From Candidatus Gottesmanbacteria bacterium (lineage in GTDB: Bacteria > Patescibacteriota > Microgenomatia > UBA10105): DNA of 43,014 bases. This document shows positions 8,436 to 43,014 of the stretch, piece by piece (positions within the stretch are counted from its first letter, which is position 1; every line of letters begins with the position of its first letter). The notes under the pieces are model-generated. The model searched no databases and was not told where the DNA came from. It saw only the letters and a program-made list of their open reading frames with translations. The position numbers were made by a program, and so were the translations under genes. The DNA is taken from assembly GCA_023245415.1 (NCBI GenBank), contig JAHFKJ010000011.1, positions 1 through 43,014 of the forward strand, given 5' to 3'.

Positions 8436-8497
8436 CCCACCCCCGGGGTGTGGCAGATTGACACCTAAGGTAATTTTGTGTATACCAAATAATATAT
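8436..8497 (+). repeat. REP sequence (family B) immediately upstream of the RAYT gene
   Basis: The hairpin CCCACCCCCGGGGTGTGG is followed by the conserved core GATTGACACCTAAGG and an AT-rich end that runs into the RAYT start codon. It matches 7361-7422 with a single mismatch. An oppositely oriented copy lies just after the RAYT gene (9192-9222). Confidence 0.9.
8458..8486 (+). promoter_or_regulatory. Promoter embedded in the REP, driving the RAYT gene
   Basis: TTGACA (8458-8463) and TATACC (8481-8486) are separated by exactly 17 bp, and the ATG follows the -10 by nine bases. The -35 is the reverse complement of the conserved REP core GGTGTCAA, so the repeat itself supplies the promoter. Confidence 0.7.
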
Positions 8498-9170
8498 GCC
8501 TTATCGAACCATTCCTTTCGTCACTGGTGAAATATACCACGTCTTCAATCGCAGCATCGCCAGGCAACCCGTCTTTTTAAATCAGCGAGATTACCAGCGG
8601 GCATACCAACTAATTGATTATTATAGATTTTTTAAACTTAATCTGCGTTTCTCACACTACAACCGTCTTCCTCTGGAACTACGCATTGAATATTTAAACC
8701 GGTTATACTCAAGTCAACCAAAAATTATAGAAATTCTCGCATTTTGTCTCATGCCAAATCATTTTCATTTTCAAATTAAACAGCTGATTGACGGAGGAAT
8801 ATCGATGTTTATCAGCAATTGGCAAAATAGTTATGCAAAATATAAAAATACTAAAACTAATAGAACCGGAAGCTTGTTTCAGGCTATGTTTAAGTCTGCT
8901 CGGATGGAAACTGATGAACAGCTTATTCATGTCAATCGCTACATTCATCTCAATCCGCTCACTTCTTATGTTTTAAATAATAAACGTCTCTTAGCCTCTT
9001 ACCCTTGGTGTTCATTTATTGATTATCTTGGAAAACGAAGTACCACTTTTATTTCAACAGGTATTATCGACAACTATTTTTCATCGCCTAAGAAATACGT
9101 AACGTTTACTCTTGACCGGTTGGATTACCAAAGAGAGTTGGAATCCATAAAACATCTGGTGCATGAATAA
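8496..9170 (+). CDS. REP-associated tyrosine transposase (RAYT, Y1/HUH type)
   Basis: The 224-residue protein belongs to the IS200-like Y1 transposase family. The N-terminus has the typical EIYHVFNRSI (12-21). CLMPNHFHF (84-92) carries the HUH pair H89/H91. The catalytic tyrosine lies in SYAKYKN (Tyr113 or Tyr116). LFQAMFKSARM and RYIHLNPL (148-155) are RAYT hallmarks. Such enzymes cut and join single-stranded REP hairpins. REP sequences in opposite orientation flank this gene directly, and about eight more occur in the window, so it is probably the enzyme that spread them. All key residues appear intact. Confidence 0.93.
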   Translation: MPYRTIPFVTGEIYHVFNRSIARQPVFLNQRDYQRAYQLIDYYRFFKLNLRFSHYNRLPLELRIEYLNRLYSSQPKIIEILAFCLMPNHFHFQIKQLIDGGISMFISNWQNSYAKYKNTKTNRTGSLFQAMFKSARMETDEQLIHVNRYIHLNPLTSYVLNNKRLLASYPWCSFIDYLGKRSTTFISTGIIDNYFSSPKKYVTFTLDRLDYQRELESIKHLVHE

Positions 9171-14991: not shown

Positions 14992-16446
14992 TCATTCCAT
15001 GATTCCCTTTTGTCTAAATTCCAAGTCACCTTGATCATTAACTGTGATCGTGAAATAAAGATCGTTCTGAAGAACCACACCATATACATCTCCCTTTACT
15101 GGTGTGAATTCAAATTCTGTTTTCACATCAGGAATTTCGATCGTCAGGCCGGTTGAATTGGTGATAATTGCGACGGGCTTAGCGCTACCATCTATTCGAT
15201 CAAACGTCAGAACTACATTGTTCCCTTTTCTTGCGGCATTTGTCTTGAAATTATCGCAATCATTTATATACTCATCTCCTGCTACTCCGTACTTTGCTTC
15301 AAACATAAGTCGAGTAAAACCGTCGCTCGAATCTGGAAGTTTGCCTGTTTCAACAGTCATTACACCCTTTAGCGTCGGACAAACTATCATATCAATTTCT
15401 GTTTGAACGGGGTTTGCCAGTCGCTCTGCTGTCAAATACCTGTTTCCCGGTGATTCTATAATTTTGCGTGAAATCCCGATAATTTGCGCCACCGGTAAAA
15501 GCGTCAGAATATTTACGGCCAGACTAGAGACACCTAAGAGATCATAAAGTTGTGAGAGGGTTATGCGTCCACCCGATATTACAGAAGCTTCAAACGCCCC
15601 GTATTTTAAAAGCCAATCAGTTAAACCTTTACCAAGATATTTTCCTAGAGGAGTTGAGACAGTCTCTAAGAATCCGTCGGTGATATTGACATGGCCAAAT
15701 GCATCTACTGCTGTGTTGTCGGCTGCTCCACCAGGTGCATAGATAATTTGATTTCCTTTAAATATTAACGGTTTAGCAATTTCCCGCGCCAAATCAACCC
15801 ATGTCTGTTCGGTTGGACTCCATTTTATTGAATCAAGCGGTACGCCCAGCGGTCGCCGAAATACGTAAACCATCGGTGTGTCACCTATCTGTACAGCTGA
15901 TATCGTCTCACCATCGGGAATAATTCCCGTCGGATCAGGTCTGCTCCTGATAAATTGTTGCGTATTTTCCGGTTTGCGGGTAACAGTATTATTGTGCACA
16001 CCTATATAATCTATTGCACTAGTTCGTAAATCCTGATGTATGCCTTGGGGTAATTTGCGTAAAAATGTCGCACCGCTGGGAAATTTGCCGGCTTTGATTT
16101 CGCTGGTATTTACAAGTAAAAAAACTGTCCGGTCATAATTGAGAGGAATCGGAGTAAGGCCAAGTAAAGGCTCAAGTTCTGTACCGGCAAATCCTACTGG
16201 TTGAGTTCCGGTTATTTTATCCCAATGAAGAGCTGTATTTCCCTTATAGGCTTGATATAAAATTCTGGCTGTGTCTGCCGGATTAAAAATGGGTGTTTCC
16301 CCGCCTGGTATCGGATCGCCACCGCAGGCAGTTAAAGTTGCAGCTACACTTGCTGCTAACCCGGGAAATAAATTTTCTAATGCCAATCCAAGACCTAATC
16401 TTCCTCCATCCCTTAATACCTGTCTGCGGGTTAAAGTTTCTCCCAT
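14992..16446 (-). CDS. Tat-exported lipoprotein of unknown function
   Basis: I chose ATG 16446 (MGETLTRRQVLRDGG), giving 484 residues. The longer open frame to 16659 runs through repeat element C and is not credible. R7/R8 form a twin-arginine motif, followed by a hydrophobic stretch and the lipobox LTAC with Cys41. The mature ~440 residues contain YRTVFLL-like strands and a Gly-rich APGGAADNTAVDAFGH (about 250-265). No family is recognised. The stop lies nine bases from the MITE. The protein would be folded in the cytoplasm, exported by Tat and lipid-anchored outside. Confidence 0.75.
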   Translation of the reverse strand: MGETLTRRQVLRDGGRLGLGLALENLFPGLAASVAATLTACGGDPIPGGETPIFNPADTARILYQAYKGNTALHWDKITGTQPVGFAGTELEPLLGLTPIPLNYDRTVFLLVNTSEIKAGKFPSGATFLRKLPQGIHQDLRTSAIDYIGVHNNTVTRKPENTQQFIRSRPDPTGIIPDGETISAVQIGDTPMVYVFRRPLGVPLDSIKWSPTEQTWVDLAREIAKPLIFKGNQIIYAPGGAADNTAVDAFGHVNITDGFLETVSTPLGKYLGKGLTDWLLKYGAFEASVISGGRITLSQLYDLLGVSSLAVNILTLLPVAQIIGISRKIIESPGNRYLTAERLANPVQTEIDMIVCPTLKGVMTVETGKLPDSSDGFTRLMFEAKYGVAGDEYINDCDNFKTNAARKGNNVVLTFDRIDGSAKPVAIITNSTGLTIEIPDVKTEFEFTPVKGDVYGVVLQNDLYFTITVNDQGDLEFRQKGIME

Positions 16447-16494
16447 AATAATATTTTTTAAATCGGAAACAGGTAGTATATCATAATTTATAAG

Positions 16495-16662
16495 ATGAAG
16501 CTCCCACAGGCTTAAGACCCGGGGTATCTTTTCGCTATCGCCAGTTGGGATCGAAATCCCTCGTGCCGCCGGCAAAGCCTTTGGCGACGCACGGCCGAAG
16601 CGAAAATTCTTCGTTTTCATCCTCGAACTTGAGGCTCGCGGTTTTTCACTGCTTCGCAATTC
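16495..16662 (+). repeat. Structured repeat element C, copy 1 (divergent)
   Basis: It begins ATGAAGCTCCCAC, continues GGGGTATCTTTTCGC and CGAAATCCCTCG, then GAAGCGAAAATTCTTCG and ends near GCTCGCGGTTTTTCAC. It shares this order of conserved blocks with 18734, 20202 and 36916. It carries an extra GC-rich hairpin (about 16560-16595) and lacks the nested GGTTCGAC palindrome. It lies in the 320-bp gap between the divergent Tat lipoprotein and cohesin genes. Confidence 0.7.
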
Positions 16663-20201: not shown

Positions 20202-20372
20202 ATGAAGCTCCCACGGGTTTACGCCCGGGGTATCTTCTCCATGTAGCTTCGTCGGGAGCGAAATCCCTTCGAAGCGAAAATTCTTAGATTTCATCCTCGA
20301 GCCTATGGTTCGACATGCTCACCATCTTAAACGTTGTCGAAGGACGCTCGCGGTATTTCGCGAAGGAGGATA
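20202..20372 (+). repeat. Structured repeat element C, copy 3 (171 bp)
   Basis: It is the same length as copy 2 and differs at only a few positions. It begins ATGAAGCTCCCACGGGTTTA and ends TATTTCGCGAAGGAGGATA. The nested GGTTCGAC/GTCGAAGG palindrome is present. Its terminal GGAGGATA directly precedes the ATG at 20374 and would act as a Shine-Dalgarno there. Confidence 0.85.
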
Positions 20373-20373
20373 A

Positions 20374-20697
20374 ATGGAAAAATTACGTGCAATTGGCGTT
20401 TCAGCTCAAGGGTCAACTTTGGCTGCGATGTCAGATGTTAATTCAGGACAGCGAAGAAAACTCTCTGCAGTTAGCAAGGAAACAAAATTTCACCCAAGAT
20501 CAATAAAATCTGCAGTTGATCCTCTGCCATGTCTTAATATAGACGAAATTCCGGAAAATAATGCAGGGAAATCTAATACAGCCGAATTTGTATTAAAAAT
20601 ATTTGATCCGCGAAACAATCCAAGCGGAAAGAATATTTGTACGTCTGAATGCAGCTTTAAAAGTGCATGCTGTGTATACCAAGCCGCAACAACTTAA
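20374..20697 (+). CDS. Small Cys-rich-tailed hypothetical protein
   Basis: The 107-residue protein starts at ATG 20374, directly behind GGAGGATAA, one of the few Shine-Dalgarno-like sequences in the window; element C copy 3 contributes it. The N-terminal half is Ser/Lys-rich. The C-terminus carries four Cys in a short span (CTSECSFKSACC). No membrane helix or family is seen. It could be a metal-binding or disulfide-bonded small protein, or even a peptide precursor; the last idea is speculative. Confidence 0.5.
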   Translation: MEKLRAIGVSAQGSTLAAMSDVNSGQRRKLSAVSKETKFHPRSIKSAVDPLPCLNIDEIPENNAGKSNTAEFVLKIFDPRNNPSGKNICTSECSFKSACCVYQAATT

Positions 20698-20699
20698 CT

Positions 20700-20722
20700 A
20701 AGTCCCACCCCCCCGATGTGAT
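20700..20722. repeat. Degenerate REP hairpin
   Basis: GTCCCACCCCCCCGATGTGA is a decayed copy of the CCCACCCC...GGGGTGTGG hairpin, without a clear core. It lies between the Cys-tailed gene and the Phd/RelE module. Confidence 0.35.
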
Positions 20723-20747
20723 ATTGCTGGGCAGATGAGAACTAGAT

Positions 20748-20772
20748 TACCAATAGTTACAAAAATCGCCAA
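20748..20772 (+). repeat. 25-bp direct repeat, left copy, flanking the Phd/RelE module
   Basis: The sequence starts TACCAATAGTTAC and is identical to 21327-21351. In the right copy its first nine bases are the last two codons and stop of the toxin gene. The left copy therefore looks like the tail of a second toxin gene whose body is gone. Confidence 0.85.
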
Positions 20773-20815
20773 CCCAATGTTGACAAAAATGTACAGAATC
20801 ATGTACCATTATACT

Positions 20816-21091
20816 GTGATTAAAACATTACCAATTACCAAAGCCCGCGAAGAATTGCCTACACTTGTGGATAAGGCTAGTAAATTATTGGATGAATATG
20901 TGATTACGGTGAATGGTATTCCTACAGCTATCCTCATGTCAGTTTCTGAATACGAATCCTGGAAAGAAACCATGGAAATTCTTTCTGACCCGCAACTGGT
21001 CTCCGCAATTCACGAAGGAGAAGAAGATTTAAAAAAAAAGAAAGTCTATGATTGGGAAAAGATCAAAAAAGATTTTCATTTAGATGTTTAA
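20816..21091 (+). CDS. Phd/YefM-family antitoxin
   Basis: From GTG 20816 the protein is 91 residues and begins IKTLPITKAREELPTLVDKA, the standard Phd/YefM N-terminus. Alternatives are ATG 20801 and an upstream GTG. VITVNGIPTAILMSVSEYESW is the DNA-binding core; the Lys/Glu-rich C-terminus should neutralise the toxin. A TTGACA (20780-20785) with TACCAT 18 bp later fits a start near 20816. The inverted sequence ATGTAC...GTACCAT over the promoter could be the operator. It overlaps the toxin gene by 8 bp. Confidence 0.85.
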   Translation: MIKTLPITKAREELPTLVDKASKLLDEYVITVNGIPTAILMSVSEYESWKETMEILSDPQLVSAIHEGEEDLKKKKVYDWEKIKKDFHLDV

Positions 21092-21335
21092 AATCAGGCT
21101 TACCCAAAAAGCTAGAAAAGAATTACAACAAATCTCTCGAGCCCATCAACTGGCGATCGGACGTATATTAGAAGATCTCCAAGATAATCCACATGAAGGT
21201 AAAGCGCTCACTCGCGAGTTGACTGGTCGCTTCTCCTATCGGGTAGGAATTTACAGAATCATCTACAAAGTGCAGGAAAAAGATAAGATTATCTATATAT
21301 TAACCGCGGGACATAGAAGTCGTGTGTACCAATAG
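21084..21335 (+). CDS. RelE/ParE-family toxin
   Basis: The 83-residue protein matches the RelE fold. KIRLTQKARKELQQI is the first strand and helix, and GRFSYRVGIYRIIYKV holds the conserved R-x-G-x-Y-R-x-x-Y core. It ends in IYILTAGHRSRVYQ, where the 'HR...VY' end is typical. It probably cleaves mRNA on the ribosome. It is coupled to the antitoxin by an 8-bp overlap. Its stop lies inside the right 25-bp direct repeat. Confidence 0.9.
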   Translation: MFKIRLTQKARKELQQISRAHQLAIGRILEDLQDNPHEGKALTRELTGRFSYRVGIYRIIYKVQEKDKIIYILTAGHRSRVYQ

Positions 21336-25260: not shown

Positions 25261-26700
25261 TTAAACACTAGTTGCACTGACGGCAATTCGCAAGGATTCG
25301 GTAAAATCTTTCGGCAGCCCATGGCTAAACAACAAGCGGGAAAGAAACCCGACAGTAGGACTATTTGCAAAAAGTCTGCCGCGGATTTGTGACTGCGTAT
25401 CCTGAAAGATTTTTTGCATCTGGCTGTCTATTACATCGTAATCCCAGGCGACACTACATGAAGCATCTGAGTACGTACTAAAACTTTTAATGGTACTGTT
25501 AAACTTCTTCATACCATTATCGATTGCTGTAAACATATCGACAATATCATCTTCGGTGATCGTTTTATATCCCTGTCTGATTGCTGCCAGGCGATAAAGA
25601 TCAATCCAGGTAAGAAAATTGATTCGAGTCTGCCCTAAAGAATCTATGTCGGTTTCATTTGTGCGATTGGTCTGGCGAAAAAATTCCAGATATAATTGAA
25701 ATTCTTGATCAGTAAGTCCCACCCGTTGGTTTAAATCCTGTATCAGGCGGGCTCCATTATAATATCCCATAGTTTCAGTATTCACAGCTGTCAACCCCCA
25801 TTGTTTTTCAATCAGATACTGGTCATATGCTCTAATCGCTTCTTCGAAGTCATCAAATAAAACATAAGTTTTGTTAGTTTTTGCGTCAAAAAACTTCAGA
25901 GTCATTCCATCGCCACCGATAAAACTTAAACTTGGCCGGCCTATCCAGTCATCGTAAAAGGTCGTAGTGACCTTCTGATCAAATAATTGACTCATACGTT
26001 TTTTTTCATCTTCTGTATACTTTCCGAATCCCGACGTATGGTCAAGTTCATGAGCGATTGCAACTGAAATATGCATGCACACCAGACTGGGGATTATTTG
26101 ACCGGCTGCATCAGTAAAATTATTTTTTTGGGTCGCTTCGGAATAAATTTTCGAAAAATCCCCTATCTCCCAGACGATCCCGTCAGAATCGGTGAATTGA
26201 AAAGCCCAGGCTTTATTCCAGAGGTCTGTCCCATGACTTCTAAGTGCATCATCAGTTACACTACTATTTTTATGTAATTTTAAATAAGTTGATAAAAATT
26301 CTTCAAATCCGTTGGTGATCTTAAAATGTTCACGCTCCCAATTCTCATTCCGATTTCTTATACGGGAAATTTCCGGTACGATGCTGTCAAATGCGGCTGT
26401 CTGCACCTGGCTGACAAAATTTCTGACATCAGATCCATCCCACCATTCAGATGCGTATCCGCCCCGGCGTAAAAATACCGCCCGGTCTAAATCCGACATC
26501 TGGTTAAATACTGCCTCAGGAATCGGCTCAGCAGTTACGGGATCCATGACCGGGATAGCCTCCGCACAGACCCGGGGATCCATCACCCAATCAGGAAATT
26601 TTCGTCTTAAATAATAAGCTCCACCTCCAAGAGCACCTGCCGTCCCACTTACAGCTGCTAACTCCAATAATTTTCTTCGATTAATCTCTACTGCTGGCAT
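25261..26700 (-). CDS. Tat-exported zinc metallopeptidase-like protein
   Basis: I chose ATG 26700 (MPAVEINRRKLLELAAV), giving 479 residues; an upstream start would overlap the promoter. R8/R9 form a twin-arginine motif ahead of a Gly/Ala hydrophobic stretch (21-32). The core has VAIAHELDHTSGFGKY with HELDH at 217-221, a zincin HExxH motif. A downstream E (EEAIRAYDQY) could be the third ligand. About 250 further residues are helical. No named family is recognised. It would fold with zinc in the cytoplasm and act outside. A consensus promoter lies upstream. Confidence 0.75.
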   Translation of the reverse strand: MPAVEINRRKLLELAAVSGTAGALGGGAYYLRRKFPDWVMDPRVCAEAIPVMDPVTAEPIPEAVFNQMSDLDRAVFLRRGGYASEWWDGSDVRNFVSQVQTAAFDSIVPEISRIRNRNENWEREHFKITNGFEEFLSTYLKLHKNSSVTDDALRSHGTDLWNKAWAFQFTDSDGIVWEIGDFSKIYSEATQKNNFTDAAGQIIPSLVCMHISVAIAHELDHTSGFGKYTEDEKKRMSQLFDQKVTTTFYDDWIGRPSLSFIGGDGMTLKFFDAKTNKTYVLFDDFEEAIRAYDQYLIEKQWGLTAVNTETMGYYNGARLIQDLNQRVGLTDQEFQLYLEFFRQTNRTNETDIDSLGQTRINFLTWIDLYRLAAIRQGYKTITEDDIVDMFTAIDNGMKKFNSTIKSFSTYSDASCSVAWDYDVIDSQMQKIFQDTQSQIRGRLFANSPTVGFLSRLLFSHGLPKDFTESLRIAVSATSV

Positions 26701-26715
26701 ATTTAAAACAACCCC

Positions 26716-26744
26716 AACATACCACATGCTTAAAGGGCTGTCAA
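26716..26744 (-). promoter_or_regulatory. Promoter of the Tat-exported HExxH gene
   Basis: On the minus strand TTGACA (26739-26744), 17 bp, TATGTT (26716-26721). The expected transcript start is about eight bases before the ATG. Confidence 0.7.
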
Positions 26745-30142: not shown

Positions 30143-30167
30143 TTGATCCCGATTAAATCGGGATCAA
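30143..30167. promoter_or_regulatory. Palindromic operator candidate upstream of the AbiE-like pair
   Basis: TTGATCCCGATT and AATCGGGATCAA form a perfect 25-bp palindrome (central A) that overlaps the -35 region. TACAAT (30180-30185) ends six bases before the ATG at 30192. It suits dimeric autoregulation by the first gene product, or it could be a hairpin terminator of upstream transcription. Confidence 0.6.
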
Positions 30168-30191
30168 GTAAGAATAGTATACAATAATCAT

Positions 30192-30458
30192 ATGTACAAC
30201 TGGTCACATATAGATGAAAAAGCGATGCAAAAAGCCGATCCGGAAAAATACCGGGTCTGGCGCCTGACTGCAATCATTGAATCTGATTTCGTCGACGAAA
30301 AACTAGCCAAAGAAGAAGTAAAAACATTCTGGCCAAAAATAAAAGATCAGATTGATCCGTGGACGCGTCGTGCATTAGAATACTTCTTATGGGGAAAACA
30401 ATACTCACTCCCAAGCAATCTTTCCTGGTGGAACAGGCAGCCAAAAACGACGAAATAA
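30192..30458 (+). CDS. Partner protein of an AbiEii-like nucleotidyltransferase (antitoxin-like)
   Basis: The 88-residue acidic/basic helical protein begins MYNWSHIDEKAMQKADPEKY. LTAIIESDFVDEKLAKEEVKTFW (split helix) is characteristic of small genes that precede AbiEii-type genes in CPR and other genomes. There is no wHTH domain as in classical AbiEi. The 3' end overlaps the toxin gene by 70 bp in another frame, so the two are translationally linked. A palindromic operator and a leaderless -10 lie upstream. Confidence 0.65.
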   Translation: MYNWSHIDEKAMQKADPEKYRVWRLTAIIESDFVDEKLAKEEVKTFWPKIKDQIDPWTRRALEYFLWGKQYSLPSNLSWWNRQPKTTK

Positions 30459-30895
30459 TACACTGGTATTATCTTACCGGGGGTACGGCTCTTGCAGAAT
30501 TTTATCTACAGCATAGGTTAAGTGAAGATGTAGATTTTAATGAATATGATTATCCTCAAATCGACCAGGGTCAAACATATGGCAAACTCAAAGTAGACAG
30601 TATATATGATATTGCGATTAACAAACTTGAAAGTATGTGTAACCGCACAAAAGCTCGCGACTATGTTGATTTATATCTGCTGATATCTCAAAATATATTT
30701 TCTATGGAACAAATAATGATGAGAGTTCCGGATAAGTTTGAACATCACTGGACAAACATGCAGTATATTCGCGCTTTTTTTGCCGTCCAGGAAGCAATTG
30801 ACTATCCCACGATGCTTGTGCCATTCAATAAAGAAGATATGATCGACTTTTATTTAGCTCAAGCGAAAAAACTCGAGCCCAAGATATTTAAATGA
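30389..30895 (+). CDS. AbiEii-family nucleotidyltransferase, internally shortened
   Basis: From ATG 30389 (MGKTILTPKQSFLVEQAA) the protein has 168 residues. YYLTGGTALAEFYLQHRLSE (27-46) with DVDF (D47, D49) is the AbiEii nucleotidyltransferase core. KVDSIYDIAINKLESM (68-83) and ARDYVDLYLLIS are the conserved C-terminal motifs. Normally 60-80 residues of beta-sheet separate DVDF from KVDSIYDIA; here only about 18 do, so an in-frame internal deletion is likely. The toxin may be inactive or a compact variant. AbiEii transfers GTP or other NMP to targets in phage defence; the target here is unknown. Confidence 0.8.
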   Translation: MGKTILTPKQSFLVEQAAKNDEIIHWYYLTGGTALAEFYLQHRLSEDVDFNEYDYPQIDQGQTYGKLKVDSIYDIAINKLESMCNRTKARDYVDLYLLISQNIFSMEQIMMRVPDKFEHHWTNMQYIRAFFAVQEAIDYPTMLVPFNKEDMIDFYLAQAKKLEPKIFK

Positions 30896-35492: not shown

Positions 35493-35606
35493 GGATTATC
35501 CACCTGTTAGGTGGAACAGCTTCGCACCTTCTGCAAAAACTTGATTCGCACATATTTATTAAGCATTTTCCTTAGGTGTCAAGCTGTCCCACCCCGGGGG
35601 TGGGTA
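35493..35606. repeat. Composite REP (BIME-like)
   Basis: ATCCACCTGTTAGGTGGA, AGCTTCGCACCTTCTGC, an AT-rich centre TTTATTAAGCATTTTCC, then TTAGGTGTCAAGCTGTCCCA and CCCCGGGGGTGGG. It is ~90% alike to 37895-38020. Its right half is translated as the C-terminal tail of the HExxH gene on the minus strand. Confidence 0.85.
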
Positions 35607-36839
35607 AGGGTGGGTAACGGGTAAGTGTAAATTTTGCAAATCAATCGTAAGTAAACGATCTGAGGTTCGCAGCAGAGGTTTAAGCTGCATTTGCATATTA
35701 CTTAAACCGCTCCCAATTTGTCCATTTTTTAAGTTTATAAGTTTATCCATCCATTTCACTTCTTCTAGTACACCGGCATTCACTAGACTTTCAGTCCATT
35801 GGCCAAGTGGAATCCGCATCAGAATCCAGGGCAATAAGTCAGCTTTTTGAGAAAATCCGAGATTACGATAAGTAGTTAAAATTTTATCAATGGTTGCAGT
35901 TTCCCTTAAAATTATTTTTTTATGTTCCTCCCACAATAGATTAGCCAAATCTGGAGGTAGAGCAGTAAATTCGCGACTGACATAATCATACAAACCATTT
36001 CTTTCTGTTAACCAGGTAGTAGGTTCTTGATTTGCTAAGCGAGTAATCAATTCGTCTTTTGACCAGGCAAATGTATACCCAAGAATATTTTTCCAGGGTG
36101 ATGTTGCTTTTAGTTTTTCAACATCTTTATCGGCAGTTGGATATTTTAGTCTAGTCCAGTTTTTTGTTAATTGTGACGACCATTCTGACCTCATAAATCG
36201 CAATCGTATATGATGAGATCCCCAGAGAGCAATTTTTTGTGATTTCCACAAAGTGGAATTCACAATATCCACAAATGCATGCCATGTCTCATGTGTTGTC
36301 GCTGATTGTAAATCATTTGCCATAAGATCAGACCGCAGTGCAATAAAAGGTACTGTTATCGGGTGTCTACTTCCAAATTTTATATGCTTGAGTCGTGCAT
36401 AGTGACCAGCAACATCGCGACTGTCTAGGCGTCCAAAATCTTCTTTACGAGTCATCAAATAAACTGCAAATGGCTCTGCAGGGTTACTAATATCTACCTG
36501 TCCCGCAGGCTCTTGACCTGATGGATCAGTGATTAATCGGTACAGGTATTGACCAGGGGTCATTTTTAATTTTGGCGCATCTTCCGCCAATGCTTGATGA
36601 ACATTAGCGACAATTTCACGTCTTTTTATCAATTCATTTACAAGAATAGAAATTTCACTTAAATTTGCAGGTTTTGATTCGCTACCTACAGCCTGGGCAA
36701 GTTCATCTTTTGAACAGCTGGGATGTGTTGCCATAAATTCAATTGCAAACTTGGTAATTTGAGCAGGACGACACAAAGCTTCATAAGCTACTTCCAGCGG
36801 GGTTGCAGATTCTAGTCGCATTTGTCCTAATTCACTCAT
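35559..36839 (-). CDS. HExxH metallopeptidase-like protein
   Basis: The 426-residue protein has no signal peptide. A helical N-terminal domain (1-90, with a winged-helix-like KDELAQAVGSE) precedes a central zincin motif: ATTHETWHAFVDIV with HETWH at 183-187, E184 being the presumed general base. The remainder is helical. It may be a cytoplasmic protease, or be released or exported in an unusual way. The last ~20 residues (HPYPPPGWDSLTPKENA) are encoded by a composite REP. A TACAAT box ends nine bases before the ATG. Confidence 0.68.
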   Translation of the reverse strand: MSELGQMRLESATPLEVAYEALCRPAQITKFAIEFMATHPSCSKDELAQAVGSESKPANLSEISILVNELIKRREIVANVHQALAEDAPKLKMTPGQYLYRLITDPSGQEPAGQVDISNPAEPFAVYLMTRKEDFGRLDSRDVAGHYARLKHIKFGSRHPITVPFIALRSDLMANDLQSATTHETWHAFVDIVNSTLWKSQKIALWGSHHIRLRFMRSEWSSQLTKNWTRLKYPTADKDVEKLKATSPWKNILGYTFAWSKDELITRLANQEPTTWLTERNGLYDYVSREFTALPPDLANLLWEEHKKIILRETATIDKILTTYRNLGFSQKADLLPWILMRIPLGQWTESLVNAGVLEEVKWMDKLINLKNGQIGSGLSNMQMQLKPLLRTSDRLLTIDLQNLHLPVTHPYPPPGWDSLTPKENA

Positions 36840-38350: not shown

Positions 38351-39394
38351 ATGAAATTCTCGGTACGACTTCGTATCTTCATCCTCTTTTATGCATGCAT
38401 CCTTACCAGTCTTTTCACCGCGCTCAACTTCCACCTATTTGCCCAGGAAAGAACAGCCATGGAGCAATTTCTCATGCGCTTTATCCAGCTACCGATCGAG
38501 ACACCTGTCAGACTGGATATTCCAGTTCAACTGCTGATCGTTTGCCTGATATCACTCCTGCCGCACGTCTTTTTCCAGACGCAGCGCATTAAAACATCGG
38601 TCGCGATGATTGGTGTCACTATCGGACTTATTTTTGTCGGCGGCTACGCATCAGTTACATTCGCCCAAACATTACTGCCTCTTTTTGACATGATTGTAGC
38701 ACTTCTTGCGGGTACATTAGTCGCTGTCATATTAAAAATGATTTATTCCTCATCTGAGCAGCAGTTTTTGCGTACTGCATTTAGCCATTTTGTTTCTGAA
38801 GACATGCTCAAAGAACTGCTGCGCAATCCGGATAAATTAAGTCTTCAAGGCAAAGAAATGGCTGTCACCATCATGTTTATGGATATCCGTGGTTTTACCA
38901 CATTTTCTGAACGCATCAGTCCCCAACTGGTAGTGAACCGATTGAACGAACTCCTGGACATCGTCTCCCTGGTGATCGTCAAGCATGGCGGTCATGTCAA
39001 TAAATTTATCGGCGACTCGGTGATGGCGATGTGGGGGGCACCAAATCCGGATAAAAAACAGGCATCTCAGGCCTGTTTCGCAGCTTTGGAAATCAAGAAA
39101 AAAATTGAATCCCAAACCGAATTTCAAGTAGGTATCGGCGTCCACTTTGGCAAAGCAATTGTAGGCAATATCGGTTCACGCAAACGCTTCGACTATACGG
39201 CCATCGGCGATACGGTCAATACCTCATCCCGTCTCGAAACTGCCAGTAAAGAATTTAAGCAGACGATCATTATTTCTGCAGCAGTCGTGGCGAAGCTGAA
39301 AGAGGAACACACCAAAGTGGAAATTCTAGACTTGGGAACTACGTATCTTAAGGGCAAATTAGATGAGATTCATGCATATGCTTTAAAGGGGTAA
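38351..39394 (+). CDS. Membrane-bound class III adenylate/guanylate cyclase
   Basis: The 347-residue protein has four predicted membrane helices (about 8-30, 57-77, 85-105, 109-131) and a C-terminal class III cyclase domain. Metal ligands are D178 (MFMDIRGFTTFSE) and D222 (NKFIGDSVMAMWG). K218 lies at the usual base-recognition position. YTAIGDTVNTSSRLE (282-296) provides the transition-state Asn290 and Arg294. It should make cAMP (less likely cGMP) in the cytoplasm in response to a membrane signal. TATAAT ends six bases before the ATG. A Pro-rich gene follows after 2 bp. Confidence 0.9.
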   Translation: MKFSVRLRIFILFYACILTSLFTALNFHLFAQERTAMEQFLMRFIQLPIETPVRLDIPVQLLIVCLISLLPHVFFQTQRIKTSVAMIGVTIGLIFVGGYASVTFAQTLLPLFDMIVALLAGTLVAVILKMIYSSSEQQFLRTAFSHFVSEDMLKELLRNPDKLSLQGKEMAVTIMFMDIRGFTTFSERISPQLVVNRLNELLDIVSLVIVKHGGHVNKFIGDSVMAMWGAPNPDKKQASQACFAALEIKKKIESQTEFQVGIGVHFGKAIVGNIGSRKRFDYTAIGDTVNTSSRLETASKEFKQTIIISAAVVAKLKEEHTKVEILDLGTTYLKGKLDEIHAYALKG

Positions 39395-39396
39395 AT

Positions 39397-39624
39397 ATGA
39401 TCATAGTTGAAAACATTCCAACATCAGCTGATCCGCTACCGCCAACACCACCTTTACCACCGCCACCTGAACAAACAACTCCAACCCCTCCGCCTGAAAG
39501 TACTGCCGCCGATCCAACACCAGTTATCACAGGAACTGCCCCAGGCGAACTAATACCAGCTGATGTAATGAGCGATCCTGATCCTGATCTAACAACTGAT
39601 GATCCAAGTGACCCGTTTCCTTAA
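39397..39624 (+). CDS. Small Pro-rich acidic protein, operonic with the cyclase
   Basis: The 75-residue protein (MIIVENIPTSADPLPPTPPL...) is almost entirely Pro/Thr/Asp and certainly disordered, with an acidic C-terminus. Its ATG is 2 bp after the cyclase stop and is preceded by AAAGGGG. That tight coupling is the main reason to accept it. It has no signal peptide. It might be an interaction tail for the cyclase, or a degraded remnant of a linker. Confidence 0.5.
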   Translation: MIIVENIPTSADPLPPTPPLPPPPEQTTPTPPPESTAADPTPVITGTAPGELIPADVMSDPDPDLTTDDPSDPFP

Positions 39625-39691: not shown

Positions 39692-39877
39692 ATGAAAATT
39701 AAAATGTACCGCCAATCGGGATTTTTGGAAATATTTGGGCTACTTATCGGTCTGGTTATAGTTTCAGGTCTCGCATTGATACTCATCTACCTTTTCGCCG
39801 GAGGCATGCCCACACTCAAATATATTTTTTCGGCAGGCACCTCTCCCCTCTCCCGAATCCTGACAAAAAGATCTTAA
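39692..39877 (+). CDS. Small single-pass membrane protein
   Basis: The 61-residue protein has a basic N-terminus (MKIKMYRQSGFLEIF), one strong membrane helix (14-36) and a short Ser/Arg tail. It precedes the Tat lipoprotein by 47 bp on the same strand. No family is recognised. Confidence 0.45.
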   Translation: MKIKMYRQSGFLEIFGLLIGLVIVSGLALILIYLFAGGMPTLKYIFSAGTSPLSRILTKRS

Positions 39878-39924: not shown

Positions 39925-40161
39925 ATGACTGACACTTTTAATAGTCCTTCCCACCCCGTTTCGCCTCCTGGAAGAGAAACAAGTGCATGCACTTATGCAT
40001 TAAATAATTTATCCAGACGAAATTTCTTGAGAGTTTTAGGCTTAGCAGCGGCAGCGGCAGGATTAACTGCCTGCAGTGGTGGTAGTCCACTTCCCTCTGC
40101 AGAAAACGCTCAAAGTTCAGAAATTTCAGCAATCCATTCCCTACAGACCATACACTCCTAA
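39925..40161 (+). CDS. Tat/lipoprotein signal region, split from the kinase-like gene by a frameshift
   Basis: The frame reads MTDTFNSPSHPVSPPGRETS, then LSRRNFLRVLGLAAAAAGLT with R31/R32, and the lipobox LTAC with Cys50. It ends after only 28 more residues at 40161. The following 673-codon frame starts in another reading frame and is open upstream to at least 40100 (LLISQEEIAGWPVIYKSVLA lies ahead of its first start). One-base insertion or deletion around 40140-40165 would join them. A TATAAT box ends eight bases before the ATG. Confidence 0.7.
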   Translation: MTDTFNSPSHPVSPPGRETSACTYALNNLSRRNFLRVLGLAAAAAGLTACSGGSPLPSAENAQSSEISAIHSLQTIHS

Positions 40162-40205
40162 TATCTCAAGAAGAAATTGCTGGATGGCCAGTCATTTATA
40201 AATCC

Positions 40206-42227
40206 GTGCTCGCAAAACCCATACCCGATCAAAGTATCGACCCTCGTATCGCCCTCTATTTTTCACAGGATAAACCGGCAAACTGGTCTCCAGTATCAGT
40301 ATCGCTAGACGCGAAAGGAGGTCAGGGTGTGGTATTGCTAATTAATGACACTGGAAAAGGACCATTCTATGCCAAAACGTATCTGGATCCCACGGCAATA
40401 TCATCTGGGGCAATAAATAACGAATATATATTGATGCGTTCATATTTGGATTATTTAGGTTATTCACCGGCACAAATTGACGCATACATCTGGCCGCCGC
40501 AAACCATACAAGGAAAAGTCTACCTGTTCACGAAAGATACGGGCATGAAATCTTTGCTGAGGCAGTCACTTATAGCCCGGGATGCTTCTCTTAAACCTGG
40601 CACAACAGAATACCTACCCTTCCCCGGAGCCCAACCTGAAGCGATAACTATCGCCACTGTCGCAGAATTGCAGACGTTTGAAGCGGTGCGAGAAGCAAAT
40701 ACCCAGGATTATGCGTATATGATCCGTCTGGTAACAAACGGCCTCGTAAAATGGCAGGAAAAAAACTCTAGTTTAATTAAAGATATTGCCGGACAAGGCC
40801 ATAAATTTTTTACAGATTTTCATCCGGACAACGTTCTCCTGAAAGAATTAAGCGAAGATGAAGCATTAAATATTTTAGGCAATGATGTTTTTAAAGAGAT
40901 GCAAACTAGTAGCTATAATTATATTAAAGGAATCATGCGGCTGCCCAATTCCGGGAAATTCGTTCAGATCATGTTTTTTGACCTGTATCCGGGATGTTTT
41001 TGCGAGGACTTAGAATTTACAGCTTCAGATATGGCCGGTTTTCTCAACCGGGATCATTATGAGTTAATACCTGCATGGGTAGAAAAAATGCCGCCGATAT
41101 TCCGCTATCCACCGGAACTTAGGATAATTCCTTCTTTTCTGTTTAAAGAATATGGCGTCGGAGTAAATGCTGATGCAGACCAACTTGCGGCAATGTTTGA
41201 TTTATCGCAAAAAATAAACAAATTCCGTAAGGATTCTTTTGCCCAGCTCGACTGGGCACGTACCCCTAGTGAACTTGCCGCCAGATTTAATGAGTTATTT
41301 ATCCTGGCATTTGTATTTTCTTTGGAGAATCAGCTCACTCATCCGCTTGCTTGGTCAGCTGCTATCACCACCGCTGATAGAATGAGCGATCCGGGTCTGG
41401 CAGTTGACCCCGATACGCTGCGCGCTTTAGAGAACTTGCATATTTTTATTGACACGACTTATACCACCAAACCCATAAGTCTTAGATTGCCAATTATCGC
41501 GGCAGCAGCCAACGACCAGTCAAAAAGTTATTTAACAAATTTATCCGCACCTCATAGCAGTTTTGGCCCGCTAACTCAAATCACGCAGGAACAGCTGGAT
41601 GACATATTTACCGTTGCCGGCCCAATCAGTCTCGAGACTACTATCCCCGGAGTTCAGAATGAATCACGCACCACCTTACCTATTCAACTGACTGCCGTCA
41701 CTAGTCCAGATGGAACAGCCAAATCCAGTGTCCGGCTGACGTTTTTAGCTTATGTAGACGGAAAAGCGTCTGAAATCCAGTTCCGGGATCTGGAGTTTTC
41801 TGTAGCCAATGACAATACAGTCGCCTTAATCAGCGGACATCCTGATGACATCCGAGCACTCAATGCAGGAGATTTGCGTACATATATCTACCCCCTAAGT
41901 AGACGGGACACGGATATCCTAAACAGTGATGATAATATAAGAAAACTCGCCAATTTTTTGCGTCCGACAATGGACCAGGATGCCCAAAATTCAGCGAAGA
42001 ATATCATCCTGAGCGCAGTCGCACCTGTCATTTATAAAATCATCCCTGATTTCCTCAATAAAAGAATAGTCTTGGTTCCAGTAGTGCCTTACAAATTTCC
42101 TCAGGAATTGATCAATTTCAGTTCTAGTCAATCTCATAGTTTTTCGCGACGTGATTTATTCTCTGTCATTCCTGCGCTTCCGGGACTTATTTTAAAATTA
42201 GCGTTCCCAGAAGATAATAAATTGTAA
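40206..42227 (+). CDS. Kinase-fold-like domain of a Tat-exported lipoprotein (frameshifted 5' end)
   Basis: The 673 residues from GTG 40206 lack their own signal; coding probably begins in the 39925 frame. Protein-kinase/APH-like elements appear in order: GGQGVVLLINDTGKG (38-52) as Gly loop, AKTYL with K57, NNEYILM with E73 as helix C, and VYLFTKDTGM as hinge. FFTDFHPDNVLL has D204 and N209, the D-x4-N spacing of the catalytic loop, and IMFFDLYPG has D259 as the metal Asp. About 350 further residues are beta-rich. The C-terminus ends FSRRDLFSVIPALPGLILKL. A kinase outside the cell would be unusual; the assignment is inferred from motifs. Confidence 0.65.
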   Translation: MLAKPIPDQSIDPRIALYFSQDKPANWSPVSVSLDAKGGQGVVLLINDTGKGPFYAKTYLDPTAISSGAINNEYILMRSYLDYLGYSPAQIDAYIWPPQTIQGKVYLFTKDTGMKSLLRQSLIARDASLKPGTTEYLPFPGAQPEAITIATVAELQTFEAVREANTQDYAYMIRLVTNGLVKWQEKNSSLIKDIAGQGHKFFTDFHPDNVLLKELSEDEALNILGNDVFKEMQTSSYNYIKGIMRLPNSGKFVQIMFFDLYPGCFCEDLEFTASDMAGFLNRDHYELIPAWVEKMPPIFRYPPELRIIPSFLFKEYGVGVNADADQLAAMFDLSQKINKFRKDSFAQLDWARTPSELAARFNELFILAFVFSLENQLTHPLAWSAAITTADRMSDPGLAVDPDTLRALENLHIFIDTTYTTKPISLRLPIIAAAANDQSKSYLTNLSAPHSSFGPLTQITQEQLDDIFTVAGPISLETTIPGVQNESRTTLPIQLTAVTSPDGTAKSSVRLTFLAYVDGKASEIQFRDLEFSVANDNTVALISGHPDDIRALNAGDLRTYIYPLSRRDTDILNSDDNIRKLANFLRPTMDQDAQNSAKNIILSAVAPVIYKIIPDFLNKRIVLVPVVPYKFPQELINFSSSQSHSFSRRDLFSVIPALPGLILKLAFPEDNKL

Positions 42228-42331: not shown

Positions 42332-43014
42332 ATGGCGGAACAGGATTTACACTACAATCCAGGATTACCACGCAGGGATTTTTTACGAGTATTGGCATTG
42401 CTGCCATTTGCTTTAGCAGGCTGTGGAAGTTCTTCTGATATTGAAGCCTGGACTTCAAATAAAAAAGGCGTATTTAAATTTAAAAAAATTGACGGTCAAC
42501 TTACCATCACTTATATCACACCTCTGGGGGACAACGCACCTTCAAACGTCTTTGACGTCGTCACCGCTTACTGCGACGCGCAACAGATCAGCCAGGGAAC
42601 TGAAGCTGGAGAGTTCATGAACCAGGTTAACACTGGCGGTCCGGACACTACCGGGAATAAACAGAATGTAGAGAATGCAAAAATTCAATTAGCTGGAGAT
42701 ATAATCAACTTAAATTCAGAGATCTTTAATGAAAATGGATTTCTAAAAAATACAGATGACGGCAGACAGCAAGCTATCGCAATTCCAATACCAGAAACTA
42801 AAATAAAATACTCCAAAGCTGCAGCAGCAGATCTTGCTAAAACTTTAAATCTGGATCCGGTCAGCTATATATTTGCACCGGATGCACCGAAAAATATTTG
42901 GATACCTGCAGCTTTAGGTTTGCTTACTTTTCTGTTTTTTACATCACGAATTATGAGGATAAGAAGACCAGGAACAGGAGAGTATATATCGGACACACCC
43001 CCATCACCTAGTAA
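42332..43014 (+). CDS. Tat-exported lipoprotein with C-terminal membrane helix (3' end outside window)
   Basis: The frame opens at ATG 42332 and stays open for 227 codons to the window edge. MAEQDLHYNPGLPRRDFLRV shows R14/R15, and the lipobox LAGC gives Cys31. The mature part (SDIEAWTSNKKGVFKFKK...) is soluble and Gln/Asn/Asp-rich. A membrane helix (IWIPAALGLLTFLFF) lies near codon 195, with a basic stop RIMRIRRPG after it. A lipoprotein with a second C-terminal anchor is unusual. It follows the kinase-like gene by 104 bp, same strand, and may be co-transcribed with it. Confidence 0.75.
   Translation, partial: MAEQDLHYNPGLPRRDFLRVLALLPFALAGCGSSSDIEAWTSNKKGVFKFKKIDGQLTITYITPLGDNAPSNVFDVVTAYCDAQQISQGTEAGEFMNQVNTGGPDTTGNKQNVENAKIQLAGDIINLNSEIFNENGFLKNTDDGRQQAIAIPIPETKIKYSKAAAADLAKTLNLDPVSYIFAPDAPKNIWIPAALGLLTFLFFTSRIMRIRRPGTGEYISDTPPSPS

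Follow-up and report, generated by a model that had tools for sequence, protein, structure and literature searches.

Kinases and kinase-like enzymes that are secreted and have divergent motifs include the Fam20 family and CotH. ATP is low outside cells, which was counted here against an exported kinase. Other known systems close to the case described here are the APH/choline kinase-type phosphotransferases (PF01636), the ABC1/UbiB proteins (PF03109) and the Tat-exported lipoproteins. The gene examined here (39925-42227; positions refer to the window, i.e. the whole stretch of 43,014 nucleotides that was analysed) would encode a twin-arginine (RR) lipoprotein whose mature N-terminal half is a divergent APH/protein-kinase-like phosphotransferase domain. 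Its features and those of the adjacent genes are given in Table 1.

Table 1. Features of the gene and of its neighbourhood, sorted according to position in the window.
Positions	Strand	Feature	Basis
38351..39394	+	Membrane class III nucleotidyl cyclase, upstream on the same strand	Pfam PF00211, E=3e-27; PADLOC PycC, E=3.2e-30
39397..39624	+	Pro-rich ORF of 75 aa, starting 2 bases past the cyclase stop codon	ORF listing
39692..39877	+	ORF of 61 aa, one predicted membrane segment (by eye)	Not called coding by segmentation
39925..40161	+	5′ part of the gene: twin-arginine lipoprotein signal (L-S-R31-R32-N-F-L-R, lipobox L-T-A-C50) and low-complexity linker to the in-frame stop	Pfam TAT_signal; TIGR01409; codon log-odds
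40086..42227	+	Main open frame, 713 codons (673 aa from GTG 40206)	ORF listing; codon log-odds; segmentation
40110..40150	+	One-base change of the coding frame, best placed at 40137/40138	Codon log-odds per frame; 7-state segmentation
40308..40530	+	Kinase N-lobe-like stretch: GGQGVVLLI, K57 (YAKTYL), E73 (NNEY helix), VYLF strand	Alignments; weak secondary structure from a low-confidence model
40812..40841	+	Catalytic-loop-like TD204FHPDN209VLL	Motif statistics; octapeptide scan
40842..40970	+	Unusual insertion (about 35-40 residues) after the catalytic-loop Asn and before the DFG-like Asp	Residue spacing
40968..40994	+	DFG-like segment IMFFD259LYPG; further Asp, D275 (ASDMAGFL), 16 residues on	Sequence comparison
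41121..42227	+	C-terminal region, type not recognised; ends with S-F-S-R-R-D-L-F and a weakly hydrophobic stretch	No family match; hydropathy
42332..43012	+	Second RR lipoprotein (L-P-R-R-D-F-L-R...L-A-G-C), located downstream; C-terminal membrane segment; truncated at the contig end	TIGR01409 scan

Gene structure and frame change

The signal is carried by an ORF of 78 aa (39925-40161); the second ORF, of 673 aa, extends from GTG 40206 to 42227. The frame of the latter is open from 40086 onwards, and GTG 40206 is its first common start. Codon log-odds trained on other ORFs of the window prefer the signal frame as far as about 40110 and, from about 40140 on, the second frame; when the whole window is segmented with 7 states, the frame switches directly at 40137/40138, without any non-coding gap. 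The coding log-odds of the long ORF are +134 (-208 and -222 in the other forward frames). Since the coding signal is handed over between the frames at 40137/40138 without a gap, and upstream of the common start of the long ORF, 39925-42227 is best read as a single gene that a one-base shift interrupts near 40137. The frame change that the earlier note had placed between the signal ORF and the kinase-like ORF is thus confirmed by both codon analyses. The shift may be either an assembly error or a true mutation; no canonical programmed -1 frameshift site (in-phase X-XXY-YYZ heptamer) was seen by eye in 40086-40161.

Alternatively, the shift would be genuine and the kinase-like domain cytoplasmic, with a start at GTG 40206 or another codon and a signal ORF that is a relic or a separate small lipoprotein. 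The two ORFs are indeed in different frames, ATP is at hand for a kinase in the cytoplasm, and the Tat translocase was not detected (see below); however, the coding signal of the long frame starts about 65 bases upstream of GTG 40206, directly continuing the signal ORF, and no Shine-Dalgarno-like site is evident by eye before this codon. A cytoplasmic domain is unlikely on this evidence.

Elsewhere in the window, the codon segmentation gives other abrupt frame changes on the same strand, in 20372-21309 and 30151-30878. These are possible broken or decayed genes or assembly indels; the assembly may therefore hold further indels or decayed genes.

The signal ORF reads L-S-R31-R32-N-F-L-R...L-T-A-C50 and passes two family cut-offs, with 22.9 bits against 22.7 for Pfam TAT_signal and 24.9 bits against 16.7 for NCBIfam TIGR01409. 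It has the features of a Tat lipoprotein: a motif of the S/T-R-R-x-F-L-K type, a weakly hydrophobic h-region and a lipobox Cys. The twin-arginine lipoprotein signal proposed previously (R31/R32, Cys50) was recovered at its place, as was the large C-terminal domain of unrecognised type, which matches no family. In this assembly, the signal is out of frame with the mature protein due to the one-base shift (about 40137); the codon signal favours one gene. The end of the protein (42070-42227), with S-F-S-R-R-D-L-F and a weakly hydrophobic stretch, resembles the start of the RR signal of the next gene.

Kinase-like motifs and tests of the fold

The 673-aa frame carries GGQGVVLLINDTGKG, YAK57TYL, NNE73Y, TD204FHPDN209VLL and FFD259LYPG; every motif listed in the earlier note is present, with the residues K57, E73, D204, N209 and D259. 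As in the superfamily, the D-x4-N loop has flanking hydrophobic residues, and the beta3 Lys and the alphaC Glu are suitably spaced. The distance from K57 to D204 is 147 residues, versus 146 in E. coli SrkA (K55-D201) and 148 in YniA (K45-D193). N209 and D259 are 50 residues apart, versus about 11 in SrkA; in the superfamily, the DFG-like Asp is expected behind a beta strand and about 10-20 residues past the Asn. A Phe is found at D204-2, where the His of HRD-type loops is expected. This Phe, the long insertion before the DFG-like Asp and the scarcity of ATP outside would suit an exported pseudokinase, whose fold would be kept for binding, not for catalysis, on the outside of the cell; the presence of all five usual catalytic residues (K, E, D, N, D) argues against this reading, which is unlikely.

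Of 20,000 shuffled versions of the protein, 16 contain the generalised APH-type motif D-[LFIMVYW]-H-[PALTVSK]-x-N-[VILFA]-[LIVMF]. In a background set of 377 ORFs (134,599 aa), in which the query is counted twice (full and truncated copies), the motif was found only in the query and in E. coli UbiB and ThiK, both kinase-fold proteins. A scan of GTDB DNA (257 Gb) for DFHPDNV[L/F] gave 79 loci: 71 are long ORFs with H-x-DFHPDNV, mostly followed by a hydrophobic-IDW-type segment; the other 8 are short or unannotated frames. Ten varied octapeptide ORFs were scanned: nine match Pfam APH or APH_6_hur, and one (L105) has no match. Viral contigs were found to contain no octapeptide-encoding DNA. Judging from these sequences, the octapeptide DFHPDNVL is highly diagnostic of APH-type phosphotransferases and, in long coding ORFs, appears almost confined to them.

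In unforced MAFFT alignments with five E. coli kinase-fold proteins, K57, D204 and N209 are mostly placed on kinase columns, D259 in some settings only; at least three of these four residues were on kinase columns in 4 of 150 control shuffles. With hhalign, the strongest match to any E. coli kinase profile covers residues 182-213 (catalytic loop) and is above all 60 shuffles, but its score is not significant: the non-kinase MetE scores higher. When the octapeptide is masked, a profile of 71 APH sequences scores the query like a shuffle; UbiB and WaaP likewise escape this profile. The long ORF has no family match in Pfam or NCBIfam up to E=10, including the Pfam kinase families that the earlier note had suggested searching, nor in PHROGs or PADLOC up to E=1. 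AlphaFold models made without homologues (full length and residues 28-395) have pLDDT of 32-33, and Foldseek, uninformative on such a low-confidence model, found no kinase. Matches obtained with phmmer in the PDB (Toll-like receptor, repeat proteins) were rejected as due to chance. The kinase-like reading put forward previously thus stands at the level of motifs (octapeptide, K-D spacing, alignments) but gains nothing at the level of the fold (AlphaFold, Foldseek, Pfam).

The protein could also be an ordinary fast-evolving RR lipoprotein in which the kinase-like residues are a chance pattern. This would agree with the lack of profile or structural support beyond the octapeptide, with an hhalign score matched by a non-kinase and with the many RR-signal proteins of the genome, several of which belong to no family. 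It is rather unlikely, however, given the near confinement of the octapeptide to APH-type kinases among long coding ORFs, the right order of the other motif residues, the right K-to-D spacing and the rarity of the motif in shuffles. A divergent APH-type kinase-like domain is the best reading, and probably the correct one, on account of the motif residues, the diagnostic octapeptide and the K57-D204 spacing.

Twin-arginine signals, relatives and neighbouring genes

About ten good RR signals, several of them with lipoboxes, are found in the genome that carries the gene (60 contigs, 96% complete). No TatC was found in this genome by Pfam or by a class-specific alignment, which recovers the divergent TatC of a relative (G002), and no TatA was detected in it. 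Tat export of the protein, as claimed previously, is a possibility: the RR lipoprotein signal is upheld and other RR signals occur in the genome, but neither TatC nor TatA is detectable. TatA and TatC are both present in one of the two other genomes of the family (G002), where the tat genes are clustered in about 4 kb of one contig; both could thus be missing from the assembly studied here together with one unassembled stretch. On contig C65 of G002 (L037, L168), a divergent TatC (19-23% identity to the remaining TatC of the class) is accompanied by a Tat-signal protein and three TatA-like genes.

Among 351 genomes of the class, TatC was found in 44, an RR signal (E<=1e-3) in 73 and both in 11; the two are not associated (odds ratio 1.3, Fisher p=0.43). 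According to a published survey (PMC9166423), TatA and TatC occur in Microgenomatia, Paceibacteria and Saccharimonadia. Textbook RR signals are found in three single-contig genomes that are 94-99% complete, G144 (L052), G155 (L053) and G106 (L063), in which TatA and TatC were not found (G106: Pfam models only). Together with L011 and L013-L019 (G000), these three loci are canonical RR signals from genomes where neither TatA nor TatC is detectable. G101 was dropped from the genomes with RR signals and no Tat, as a TatA lies near a contig end. Proteins with RR signals in genomes without detectable Tat would use either Sec or an unrecognised translocase; the occurrence of canonical RR signals in many genomes of the class without findable TatA/TatC is a testable puzzle. 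For the protein described here, the RR signal is considered real from its sequence, while Tat export in this species is a possibility. The chances that the domain is kinase-like and also part of an exported lipoprotein are about even.

No homologue was found in the same genome beyond the gene itself, in the family (3 genomes), the order (27 genomes) or the class (374 genomes), in GTDB or viral contigs (pattern scan for close relatives), or in phage or plasmid records. Weak matches, e.g. L003 and L006, were dropped as unrelated ORFs or short frames. L069, the best of 180 RR-signal ORFs from the same genome and relatives, was also rejected: its score of 60 (4 of 2000 shuffles) corresponds to chance after multiple testing, and the alignment falls outside the kinase part. 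As far as these searches reach (class genomes, GTDB, viral contigs, phages, plasmids), the protein is a species-level ORFan.

The stretch 14992-16659 (-) encodes a further RR lipoprotein, of 555 aa (TRRQVLR...LTACGG), which belongs to no family. Zinc-protease-like HExxH motifs (HELDH, HETWH, HEFQH, HELTH) are found in ORFans that have an RR signal or are unassigned: 25261-26727 (-) and 35559-36839 (-) in the window, 1072-2364 and 67-1047 in L069. Such ORFans may represent a kind of surface protease that recurs in this family. An ORF at 8496-9170 resembles by eye a REP-associated (Y1-type) transposase (MPNHFHF motif).

The spacing of the genes around the lipoprotein (Table 1) suggests co-transcription; a scan of the neighbourhood for promoters and terminators remained at chance level. 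The cyclase (38351-39394) looks catalytically intact by eye, and its PADLOC match to Pycsar cyclases is probably due to the shared cyclase domain. That the lipoprotein is connected with cyclic-nucleotide signalling is no more than a suggestion.

Proposed activity and comparison with known systems

For fold, catalysis, export and substrate, we infer the following. Following export and acylation on Cys50, the protein would stay anchored to the membrane on its outer side. ATP would be held by K57 and E73 and metal bound by N209 and D259, with D204 as the catalytic base; about 40 inserted residues would lie after the catalytic loop and before the DFG-like Asp. A substrate on the outer face of the membrane would be phosphorylated or bound; modification of surface or host proteins, as proposed previously, is speculation. 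CPR membership is plausible, and genomes are small throughout the class sample. Read most boldly, the protein would be a kinase-like enzyme anchored at the surface of a bacterium with a small genome (probably CPR), exported by a Tat-type route in folded and perhaps ATP-loaded form, encoded beside a membrane nucleotidyl cyclase and another RR lipoprotein, and acting on extracellular or host targets; taken as a whole, this reading is unlikely. If the kinase-like reading is true, the protein would be an extremely divergent member of the APH/protein-kinase-like superfamily outside the cytoplasm of a small-genome bacterium, which raises the questions of the ATP source and of the modified target.

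Tat-exported lipoproteins have the same SRRxFLR motif and the same lipobox (LTAC); the case described here differs in that its genome has no detectable TatA/TatC. ABC1/UbiB proteins (AarF, PF03109) have a very similar loop (SFFHADMHPGNIF in UbiB, KFFTDFHPDNVLL in the query), but the query has no Pfam ABC1 match, and the N-terminal features specific to UbiB were not seen in it. APH/choline kinase-type proteins (PF01636; E. coli ThiK, SrkA and YniA, and Paenibacillus 'HGDFHPDNVL' proteins) have the same D-F-H-P-D-N-V-L loop, the same upstream Lys and Glu at APH-like spacing and the same downstream hydrophobic-Asp. In contrast to them, the query has no profile similarity beyond the octapeptide; it shows Phe in place of His at D-2, carries about 40 inserted residues ahead of the DFG-like Asp, and has an RR lipoprotein signal and a large unrecognised C-terminal half. 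No sequence relation was found with Fam20 or CotH, from which the query differs as a lipoprotein with an APH-like loop; if the reading is right, it would have in common with them a kinase-like fold outside the cytoplasm.
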